A stretch of 64,000 nucleotides of DNA from Geothrix sp. 21YS21S-4 (GTDB taxonomy: Bacteria > Acidobacteriota > Holophagae > Holophagales > Holophagaceae). Below, in pieces: positions 57,789-62,594 of the stretch. The position numbers and the translations under genes were made by a program. The stretch's first letter is position 1. Every line of letters starts with the position of its first letter. The notes beneath the pieces were generated by a model. It was given only the letters and a program-made list of their open reading frames with translations, ran no database searches and was not told where the DNA came from. The stretch is from contig NZ_CP132719.1 of assembly GCF_030845995.1 (NCBI RefSeq), positions 1,860,001 through 1,924,000 of the forward strand. Direction: 5' to 3'.

Positions 57789-60587
57789 CTACTTGCAGGC
57801 CAGCCAGCTCGCCCCCTGGCGAACCTCCGCCGCCAGCTTCACGCCCAGGGGACCGAGGTCGTCTGCGCCTTCCATGGCCTCCTTGAGGACGGCCGAGGCA
57901 CGCTCCACCTCCTCCGGCGGGGCTTCCACCAGGAGTTCGTCGTGGACCTGGAGCAGCAGCCGTGCGCGGAGCCCCTCCTCCTTCAATGCCCGATGGAGGC
58001 GCACCATGGCGCGGCGCATCAGGTCGGCGGCGGTTCCCTGGACGATGGTGTTCACCGCTTCGCGCAGCCCCTGGGCCTGGAACTGCTTGTTGGGGCTCTC
58101 CAGTTCGGCGATGCGCCGGATGCGGCCCCAGTGGGTGCGCACCAATCCCTCGGCCAGCGCCCGCTCCTTGGCGCCGTCGATCCACGCGGCCACCTGGGGC
58201 ATCCGCTCGAAATAGCGCTCGATGAAGGCCTTCGCCTCCTTCTGGGTGATGCCCAGGTTGGCCGCCAAGGCGAAGGCGCCCTGGCCGTAGAGCAGTCCGA
58301 AATTCACCGCCTTGGCCTTGCTGCGGTCGTCGGCCGTCACTTCGCCCATGGGCTTGCCCATGACCTCCGACGAAGTCCGCCGGTGGATGTCCTCCCCCGC
58401 CTCGAAGGCCCCGAGCAGCACGGGATCCTGGGCCAGGGCCGCCACCACGCGCAGCTCGATCTGGCTGTAGTCCGCGTCCAGGAGCACCCAGCCCGGCTCT
58501 GGAACGAAGGCCCCGCGGATGGCGCGGCCCTCCTCGGTGCGGATGGGGATGTTCTGGAGGTTGGGATCGCTGGAGGCGAGGCGGCCGGAGGCCACCGCCG
58601 CCTGATGGAGGCGCGTATGCACCCGCCCCGTCAGTGGATTCACCATCTGCGGCAGGGCCTCCACGTAGGTGCCCAGCAGCTTGGTCATCTGGCGGTGGCG
58701 CAGCAGGTCGCGGGCGATCTCGGCGCCCTGGTTCTCCGCCAATTCCTGCAGGACATCCTCGTCCGTGCTGGGCGCCTTGGTCTTCCCCGTGTATTTCACG
58801 GGCGTGTAGCCCAGCTTCCCGAAGAGCACCGCGCCGAGCTGGGTCGGGCTGTTGAGGTTGAAGGGGCCCCCCGCCAGTTCGATCACCCGGACCTGGGCCC
58901 GCTCGCGCTCGGCGCGCATGCGCGTCGCAAGTTCGGACAGGACGCCCAGATCCAGCCGCACGCCATGGGCCTCGAGGGCCGCCAGCACTTCCACGAGGGG
59001 CAGGTCCACCTCCTCGTAGAGACGCTTCAACCGATCTTCTCCCAGTTGCCCGCGCAGCTTGTCGCAGAGCTGAAGCGCCAGGTCCGCGTCCTCCGCCGCG
59101 TACTGGACGGCCCGCTCGAACTCGGCCTCGTCGAACCGCTTCTGGCCCTTCCCTTTCCCCACCAACTCCTCGAAGGCGATGGGCTTCACGTCCAGGTGGC
59201 GCACCGACAGGTCGTCCAGGTTGTGGCGCACGCCGCTGTCCAGCAGGAAGCTCAGCACCATGCTGTCGTCCGCGACGCCGGCCACGGGCAGACCGTGGCG
59301 GGTCAGGACCTGAAGGTCGTACTTGAGGTTCTGGCCGCACTTGAGGATGGCCGGATCGGCGAGGAGGGGAGCCAGGATCCGCCGGGCCTCCGCGAAGGGC
59401 GCGTTGCGGGGATCCAGGTGGGGCGCCAGTTCCCGGAAGAACGCTTCCGGATCGCCCTTCAGATCCAGCAGCGATTCCGGCAGCCCCGATTCCGGAAGAA
59501 GGCCCGGAAGGGCGCCCTCGGTGTCCGCGGCGGCGGGCTTCAGGTGGGCCAGAGGGATGTAGAGCCCCTCATTCGGCTTCCAGGCGAGGCTGACGCCCAC
59601 CAGATGGCCCCGCGCCGAGTCCAGGTTGGTGGTCTCGGTGTCGAGGCCGAAGCGGCCCGCGGCGCGGCAGGCGGCCACGGCGGCTTCCAGATCCGGGAGG
59701 GTGGCCGCCGCGCGGTAGGCCCGGACGCTGCCGGCCTGTTGCGCGCTCCGCGTGAACTCCTTGGTCAGGGTCTGGAAGCCCAAATCCTTGAACGCCTCTC
59801 GCGCCCGGGCCTCGTCCACGCCGGGATAGGCGAGGTCGGCGGGATGCAGGGGCAGCTGGAGGTCGGTCACCACCGTGACCAAGCGCCGGGTCAGGTCCAG
59901 CCAGGGCGCCGCCGCTTCGAGCCCTTCCCGCTGGCGGGGCTTGAGCCCCTCCTTGGCCGCGAGGATTCCCGCGAGGCTGCCGTAGGTATCCAACAGGGCG
60001 CAGGCCCCCTTTTCCCCGATGCCCGGCACGCCCTTGACGTTGTCGGAGGCGTCGCCCACCAGGCTGAGGAAGTCCACCACCTGCTCCGGCCACACGCCCA
60101 GCCGCGTCTTGACGCCCTCCCGGTCGTGCCAGATCTCGCCGTCCTTGGTGTTCAGCACCTGGATCTTCAGGTCGTCGTCCACCAGCTGGAGGAGGTCCTT
60201 GTCGGGGCTGACGATGGCCGTGGGCAGGCCCGCCGCGGCGGCCTCCCGGGCCAGGGTGCCCATCACGTCGTCCGCCTCGTACCCCTGCAGCTCCACGATG
60301 GGAATGGACAGCGCCTCCACCAGCCGCCGGATCATCGGCACCTGGGGGCGCAGGTCCTCGGGCATCTCCGAGCGGTTGGCCTTGTACTCCGGATAGAGCT
60401 CGTGGCGGAAGGTCGGGCCGGACACGTCGAACACGCACGCGAGGTGCGTGGGCCGGTGCTTTTCCAGCAGCTGGAGCACCAGCCGGGAAAAGGTGTAGGC
60501 CGCCCCGTTCTTCAACCGCGGATTGGCGTAGTAGGCCCGAAAGATGAAGGCGAATGTATCGATGAGATAGAGGCGATCCTCAGCCAC
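57789..60587 (-). CDS. polA: DNA polymerase I
   Basis: 932 residues, full three-domain enzyme. 5'-nuclease about 1-290 (YEADD, SPDKDLLQLV, GVPGIGEKGA); 3'-5' exonuclease about 305-530 with intact DTETTN, NLKYDLQ and YAAEDAD; polymerase with DADYSQIELRV, RSKAKAVNFGLLYG and QVHDELLVEA. The start is a GTG at 60587 with GAGG upstream. The first 16 codons are a recoded copy of the start of an overlapping upstream ORF. It repairs gaps and removes RNA primers. Confidence 0.95.
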   Translation of the reverse strand: MAEDRLYLIDTFAFIFRAYYANPRLKNGAAYTFSRLVLQLLEKHRPTHLACVFDVSGPTFRHELYPEYKANRSEMPEDLRPQVPMIRRLVEALSIPIVELQGYEADDVMGTLAREAAAAGLPTAIVSPDKDLLQLVDDDLKIQVLNTKDGEIWHDREGVKTRLGVWPEQVVDFLSLVGDASDNVKGVPGIGEKGACALLDTYGSLAGILAAKEGLKPRQREGLEAAAPWLDLTRRLVTVVTDLQLPLHPADLAYPGVDEARAREAFKDLGFQTLTKEFTRSAQQAGSVRAYRAAATLPDLEAAVAACRAAGRFGLDTETTNLDSARGHLVGVSLAWKPNEGLYIPLAHLKPAAADTEGALPGLLPESGLPESLLDLKGDPEAFFRELAPHLDPRNAPFAEARRILAPLLADPAILKCGQNLKYDLQVLTRHGLPVAGVADDSMVLSFLLDSGVRHNLDDLSVRHLDVKPIAFEELVGKGKGQKRFDEAEFERAVQYAAEDADLALQLCDKLRGQLGEDRLKRLYEEVDLPLVEVLAALEAHGVRLDLGVLSELATRMRAERERAQVRVIELAGGPFNLNSPTQLGAVLFGKLGYTPVKYTGKTKAPSTDEDVLQELAENQGAEIARDLLRHRQMTKLLGTYVEALPQMVNPLTGRVHTRLHQAAVASGRLASSDPNLQNIPIRTEEGRAIRGAFVPEPGWVLLDADYSQIELRVVAALAQDPVLLGAFEAGEDIHRRTSSEVMGKPMGEVTADDRSKAKAVNFGLLYGQGAFALAANLGITQKEAKAFIERYFERMPQVAAWIDGAKERALAEGLVRTHWGRIRRIAELESPNKQFQAQGLREAVNTIVQGTAADLMRRAMVRLHRALKEEGLRARLLLQVHDELLVEAPPEEVERASAVLKEAMEGADDLGPLGVKLAAEVRQGASWLACK

Positions 60588-60690
60588 GGACCACCTCGCA
60601 GCTCAACGGCGAAGTCTCGCGCATCCGCAGAGCGGATACCGAGAAGATGAAGGCGAAGGTGTCGATGAGATAGAGGCGGTCTTCGGACAT
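60580..60690 (-). CDS. 36-codon leader ORF duplicating the polA start
   Basis: An ATG at 60690, preceded by GGAACC, begins MSEDRLYLIDTFAFIF, which equals the polA N-terminus (MAEDRLYLIDTFAFIF) at 15 of 16 residues. The DNA of the two copies differs at 8 of 48 positions, mostly in third codon positions. After codon 16 the ORF continues with unrelated sequence and ends with TGA inside the polA start, overlapping it by 8 bp. The copies are 103 bp apart, so they are in different frames. It may be a translated leader that couples into polA, or a relic of the original polA start. Confidence 0.5.
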   Translation of the reverse strand: MSEDRLYLIDTFAFIFSVSALRMRETSPLSCEVVRG

Positions 60691-60783
60691 GGTTCCAGTC
60701 TGGCAGGCCGGCGGGATTCATGGCCGGGTCGCCGGCTGACGATGCCTACGCGTACACTCAATGTCATGGCTGGGAGGTTTCAG

Positions 60784-62321: not shown

Positions 62322-62594
62322 TCACTTCTTCTTCGCGTCCTTGGCCTCGATGCTGCTGGCCACCTGCCGGTAGGTCACGGTGACCTTGTTCCCCACCTTG
62401 AGGGCCTCCTTGCCGCTGGTGCCGCCCTCGGTGTAGAAGCGCCACTCCTCCTTCCCTAGGTCGAGGGTGAAGCTGTCGCCGGACAGCTCCTTCACGACTC
62501 CGGTCTTCTGGTACTTGGCGGCGGCCGCGGCCCATCCCAGGGCGCCGCCGAGCACGGCGACGGCGGACAGCACGACGAGCGGTTTCAGGCGCAT
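62322..62594 (-). CDS. Small periplasmic protein of unknown function
   Basis: 90 residues. Signal peptide (residues 1 to about 25, ALGWAAAAA). The rest is a small beta-rich domain (TGVVKELSGDSFTLDLG, VGNKVTVTYRQVA) of the general kind seen in metal- or nucleic-acid-free OB-like exported proteins, ending in a lysine-rich tail. No family named. Confidence 0.6.
   Translation of the reverse strand: MRLKPLVVLSAVAVLGGALGWAAAAAKYQKTGVVKELSGDSFTLDLGKEEWRFYTEGGTSGKEALKVGNKVTVTYRQVASSIEAKDAKKK

Follow-up and report, generated by a model that had tools for sequence, protein, structure and literature searches.

A 103-bp hairpin-bearing unit that probably split the start of polA, and its relatives at gene ends across the Holophagaceae

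The start of polA is doubled in the window (the whole 64,000-nt stretch of DNA that was analysed; Table 1), and we interpret this arrangement, with a probability of about 0.75, as a polA gene that a 103-bp unit belonging to a hairpin repeat family has split after codon 15–16, the old start persisting as a leader open reading frame (ORF) coupled to the working start. We observed directly that the unit is present in some relatives and absent from others, that it has a fixed length and occurs in tandem multiples, that the hairpin recurs together with duplicated ends of many genes, and that the hairpin stem covaries. A broader proposal, to which we give somewhat less than even odds, is that the Holophagaceae harbour a new class of small mobile DNA: a 30-nt folded element with a ~73-bp duplication and no known transposase match, which persists in essential genes because their ends stay complete and, at 5′ ends, a leader coupled to the gene is left.

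In the course of events that we favour, a 103-bp unit of the hairpin family would have entered an ancestor's polA after codon 15–16, comprising the 30-nt bulged hairpin and ~73 bp that duplicate the target gene end and some of its flank. The original start would have stayed upstream as the leader ORF, with the copy inside the unit becoming the working start. Judging from the sequence, ribosomes from the original site would translate across the hairpin, terminate at the TGA that overlaps the polA start, and begin again on polA, and selection would have fixed the leader stop. Insertions would be seen at gene ends because duplication there leaves a complete gene and does the least harm, and the unit would often be lost again by recombination between the repeats. 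The repeat can thus live inside essential genes without breaking them, including genes for DNA polymerase I, cell-wall and folate enzymes, ribosomal proteins, and respiratory complex I; leader reading frames then arise from the gene's own start. Start-codon annotation in the Holophagaceae is affected, the upstream ATG of polA not being the start of the full-length protein, and both the gain and loss series (0, 1, 2, or 3 units) and the origin of the fixed-length duplication are directly testable.

Layout of the doubled polA start

A 49-nt direct repeat (60541–60589 and 60644–60692; 86% identical, spacing 103 nt) is the sole direct-repeat family between 60300 and 61000, confirming the original prediction that 16 codons of polA occur twice, 103 apart and out of frame; the ends of the 103-bp unit are uncertain by a few nt because of this repeat. 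Counting by hand reproduced its figures for the two copies as well: 8/48 nt differ and 15/16 residues agree with GTG read as M, the single residue change being S2A. The doubled start is therefore confirmed as an observation, although the account given of it was incomplete: the hairpin repeat that separates the copies, and on which the arrangement turns, had gone unnoticed.

Table 1 Features of the polA locus (positions in the window)
Feature	Position	Strand	Basis
polA, DNA polymerase I, 932 aa, GTG start	57789..60587	-	ORF list; Pfam
Inserted, now working copy of the first 16 codons of polA	60540-60587	-	
Leader ORF, 36 aa, MSEDRLYLIDTFAFIFSVSALRMRETSPLSCEVVRG, then stop	60580..60690	-	ORF list; frame and stop in 20/20 filled genomes
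Original polA start, ~16 codons, within the leader ORF (ATG at 60690)	60643-60690	-	
30-nt bulged hairpin CTCGGTATCCGCTCTGCGGATGCGCGAGAC, family-wide repeat	60614..60643	-	
Spacer inside the unit, carrying the Shine-Dalgarno GAGGTGG of the working start	60588..60613	-	Conserved in filled genomes
103-bp inserted unit: hairpin, spacer, and working gene-start copy	60541..60643	-	Empty and filled relatives differ by 103n; repeats

The polA product carries the expected Pfam domains (5_3_exonuc_N, 5_3_exonuc, DNA_pol_A_exo1, and DNA_pol_A), the first beginning at residue 5, and its GTG is preceded by a good Shine-Dalgarno sequence. The leader had been credited with a start, a ribosome site, and a stop overlapping the polA start: the start and the stop were borne out, the TGA at 60580–60582 lying over the polA start region GTGGCTGA, but the ribosome site is only weak (ACTGGAACC-ATG). 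We found no promoter or terminator in the polA insert; a known Rfam element was rejected, with no match in the insert and one chance-level match outside it. A small secreted-protein gene near polA (62322–62594, minus strand) has no hairpin in this stretch, and its apparent orthologue in genome G006 carries two 69-bp hairpin units at the 3′ end (L006, 2741–2840).

Empty and filled polA sites, and the leader frame

The polA start was read in 41 genomes of the genus, 21 without the unit and 20 with one to three units in tandem; an upstream motif and the polA body are separated by 68 + 103n nt, give or take 1–2 nt in a few genomes. All 21 empty genomes have a single start of the leader type, M[S/P/T/N]EDRLYLIDTFAFI, with similar upstream sequence, and sister genomes with and without the unit share their flanks (G001 and G021; G045 and G002 against G044). 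The working copy always opens (A/G)ED, and the native start [S/P/T/N]ED. The leader-type start of the unit-free relatives and the shared sister flanks indicate that the leader is the old start and the 103-bp unit the newcomer, which answers the question, raised with the original prediction, of which copy is ancestral. By this comparison, the inserted unit would have supplied the hairpin, the ribosome site, and the second start. The earlier suggestion that the leader was a copy made to control polA does not hold: it is the original start, severed by the inserted unit.

Mapped onto a quick single-gene tree built from the polA body, presence and absence of the unit requires 12 changes, 8 of them forced by well-supported branches, and is no more clustered than shuffled labels. 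The divergence of the units nevertheless tracks that of the polA body (Mantel rho 0.35, p 0.002), and divergence in step with the body fits an old insertion that was lost many times. Easy loss through recombination between the direct repeats fits this pattern, with repeated gain as the alternative. Upstream of the polA start, an operator-like palindrome, TAGAACGATCGTTCGTGCTGTCAAG, occurs in five genomes (G008, G018, G020, G024, and G043).

In every filled genome (20/20) the polA leader remains open through the hairpin and the spacer and terminates at a shared TGA that lies 5 nt inside the working gene, as the original prediction of a layout suited to translational coupling would have it; stops interrupt a second frame in 16 genomes and the third in 12. 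It is the S2A change that makes this TGA (GGC TGA within GTG GCT GAG). The leaders of the other eight 5′-end targets (see below) use the same hairpin frame, and across all nine targets the leader stop lies between −12 and +8 nt relative to the working start at every site (45/45), against 3/45 and 2/45 for the other two frames; because sites of the same gene do not count as independent, the effective sample is nine genes rather than 45 sites. The stop and start often overlap as ATGA or TGATG, and also as ATGGCTGA. Selection for termination at the new start appears to be the best explanation of this placement. In translational coupling, the stop of the upstream ORF lies at or beside the start codon of the one downstream, and such a conserved position is what we observed at polA and at the nine genes together. 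A synthetic example of coupling by an overlapping stop and start has been described (PMC11602170). Unlike in ordinary coupled pairs, the upstream ORF here is the gene's own severed start, made by an inserted repeat.

Differences at codon positions 1/2/3, calculated without codons 1–2, were 0.097/0.074/0.279 for leaders, 0.017/0.009/0.362 for working copies, and 0.015/0.000/0.224 for native single starts. The leader protein is relaxed and the working copy conserved; both copies are coding, as had been claimed, but they are not both now conserved as protein. Because the leader protein is relaxed and the layout is generic, a dedicated control of polA is not supported, so that the earlier regulatory reading stands in part: its anatomy and coupling arrangement are supported, its dedicated control is not. 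In several genomes, RNA folding predicts that leader codons base-pair with the Shine-Dalgarno of polA, suggesting a possible leader/Shine-Dalgarno attenuator. This stem showed no compensatory changes among the genomes compared, and a conserved attenuator, with pairing predicted in some genomes and no compensatory change, was rejected.

The hairpin family and duplicated gene ends

The gap between the two polA starts partly recurs elsewhere in the window's own genome (one contig, 3.08 Mb), which holds four copies of the hairpin. Its sequence, CTCGGTATCCGC-TCT-GCGGATGC-G-CGAG-AC, forms a 12-pair stem with a 3-nt loop and one bulged base (folding energy −18.2 kcal/mol, z −4.8). Within the genus the hairpin is present in 46/47 genomes, with 0 matches for a reversed-pattern control, and a search of the class found it in 8/18 genera, all belonging to the window's family, the Holophagaceae, with no matches in the other two families searched. 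Copies per genome range from about 1 to 26 across the Holophagaceae, the maximum occurring in one genome. A scan of genome contigs with the exact pattern returned one match, in a record titled Holophagaceae bacterium, and none of the viral contigs carried the pattern, so phage or viral carriage was rejected. We scored covariation at those stem positions that the pattern used for the class search did not constrain: pair 10–18 was paired in 117/123 distinct hairpins (shuffled mean 58) and pair 11–17 in 114/123 (shuffled 60), which indicates that the folded form matters, as RNA or as single-stranded DNA.

Besides the own-genome and genus loci, we examined ~120 hairpin-bearing regions, which revealed two settings, many hairpins lying in larger intergenic repeats and others near gene ends. 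The former include L036, L037, L057, L060, L065, L078, L118, and L132; these composites are of the CACCAAGACACCAAG type or of another type with inverted ends, AGGAGCGTGTCCAAGTAATGG, and the hairpin in them is always followed by a conserved AAACNGAAATNT. At L130 and L140 the hairpin lies within a coding sequence and is bordered by a short repeat; it appears to be an in-frame insertion of ~51 nt.

At gene ends the order is constant (gene-end remnant, hairpin, spacer, and intact gene end joined to the body), and in the cases examined the gene body lies on the GAGAC side of the hairpin. We found ~20 further genes or gene families with the hairpin between two copies of a 5′ or 3′ gene end, including uppS, manC, folP, rpsT, rpsU, and biotin carriers. 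By Pfam, the 5′-end targets are Prenyltransf (uppS), NTP_transferase (manC-like), DUF502, ThiF, Pterin_bind (folP), AA_permease, AA_kinase, and MacB_PCD; the 3′-end targets are Ribosomal_S20p, Ribosomal_S21, Biotin_lipoyl (two genes), NFACT-R, 2-oxoacid_dh, Oxidored_q3 (nuoJ), A_deaminase, and Amino_oxidase. The arrangement, originally taken for a control specific to polA, is thus shared with eight other 5′-end targets and many 3′ ends.

The distance from the hairpin to the junction with the intact copy is about 70–77 nt at most targets, with exceptions at 38–41 and about 125–140 nt. At the manC-like gene (L203) and rpsT (L193) the noncoding flank is duplicated too (66/71 identical each), and these two sites look recent and resemble local duplicates; at polA, the duplicated noncoding sequence has lost any clear resemblance to the native flank. 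The simplest reading would be that insertion of the hairpin duplicates ~73 bp of the target. A short target duplication was set aside because the recent cases already have ~70-nt duplicates. The duplicates are often bounded by a start or stop codon, and simple target duplication would not lead one to expect this unless drift or conversion followed. At rpsU (L004), a hairpin variant carries, on the gene strand, an ATG whose reading frame is that of the orphaned C-terminal copy (MSKANTEKKTLKRLAQERRLIG, then stop), and the two may form a small ORF made of a ribosomal protein end.

Alternative explanations and related systems

The mainly synonymous differences between working and native starts, together with their (A/G)ED and [S/P/T/N]ED openings, would also be expected if a circular or linear cassette of hairpin and donor gene end had recombined into the homologous end, making the working copy foreign; the identical units in tandem and the patchy distribution (12 changes on the tree) agree with such an import. 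We consider it unlikely, since unit divergence follows that of the polA body, as vertical descent would have it, the L203 and L193 sites resemble local duplicates, and neither circles nor a carrier element were seen, with none in viral contigs. Still less credible is that the leader peptide, or the hairpin with the overlapping stop, evolved as a control of DNA polymerase I: the unit is absent from 21/41 relatives, the same layout stands at eight unrelated 5′-end targets, the leader protein is relaxed, and the Shine-Dalgarno stem lacks compensatory changes, even though the leader frame and stop are kept in 20/20 filled genomes and leader codons are predicted to pair with the Shine-Dalgarno in several.

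An equally improbable origin is mobilisation of a REP-like element by a single-strand transposase of the IS200/RAYT type, replication slippage at the hairpin having produced the duplication. A bulged, covarying hairpin of REP size in fixed orientation relative to the junction speaks for it, but Y1 transposases occur in just 5/47 genomes and are not clearly flanked by the hairpin, no GTAG/CGTC tag is conserved, and we know of no IS200/RAYT-type enzyme that makes 70-bp duplications. Misassembly or contamination has a negligible probability: tandem repeats may be assembled wrongly and a contig of G009 ends near its polA array, but the unit recurs in 20 genus assemblies, single-contig genomes included, in 103-nt quanta and conserved with divergence, and recurrence across genomes already refutes it.

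The hairpin of the preferred insertion reading works like an intragenic palindromic repeat and does not belong with the REP, MITE, or attC elements. At 30 nt, bulged, and with 1–26 copies per genome, it has the form of a REP, a short (20–40 nt) imperfect multicopy palindrome; however, GTAG/CTAC lies near the hairpin in only 7/209 cases on the left and 6/209 on the right, CGTC/GACG in 37/209 and 35/209, and no RAYT gene flanked by the repeat was found. As for MITEs, the inverted part is the hairpin alone and the duplications are mostly ~70 nt or more; some intergenic copies sit inside larger repeats with inverted ends. The RYYYAAC/GTTRRRY core sites of integron attC were found at 0/209 on either side. 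Some integrative elements rebuild the end of the gene they enter, supplying a copy that keeps the target intact and leaving a remnant on the far side; the present unit differs in being ~103 bp, in lacking a recombinase, and in using one hairpin for many target genes.

Of the published systems, Rickettsia palindromic elements (RPE) and CGTC repeats come closest to the Holophagaceae hairpin. As far as the cited accounts go, RPE and other intragenic MITEs are similarly short palindromes, read in frame and tolerated in many unrelated protein genes, but RPE add an in-frame segment to the protein, whereas the Holophagaceae unit duplicates a gene end, adds nothing to the full-length protein, and at 5′ ends leaves a separate leader ORF (PMC10969869). 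REP and CGTC repeats, in the portions of the literature considered, share the 20–40 nt imperfect hairpin with a conserved bulge, and CGTC repeats have no known transposase and lie in some cases inside genes, like the Holophagaceae hairpin (PMC3733652, PMC8266576). The latter differs from both: it has neither a conserved GTAG or CGTC tag nor a linked RAYT, its units have a fixed length and duplicated gene ends, and its copy number is low for REPs. Gene-end duplication is not described in those parts of the papers on RPE and CGTC repeats (PMC10969869, PMC3733652, PMC8266576). The open-access literature yielded no published description of an equivalent hairpin and gene-end duplication, and a hairpin insertion family with gene-end duplication and conserved coupled leaders is apparently new to the literature.

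A search of the 47 genus genomes for PF01797 (IS200-like/Y1) found it in 5, with no clear hairpin within ~1.5 kb of the copies; matches near the transposases were just at the 5-mismatch level, which is also reached by chance in the window. RAYT/IS200 was therefore rejected as the mobiliser, as was a reverse transcriptase, RVT_1 being present in 15/47 genus genomes and absent from the window's genome (G000). These searches turned up no mobilising enzyme, which counts against the insertion reading. G000 itself holds five equal-scoring copies of an IS200-type Y1 transposase (L150, L154, L156, L158, and L160) that is absent from most relatives.
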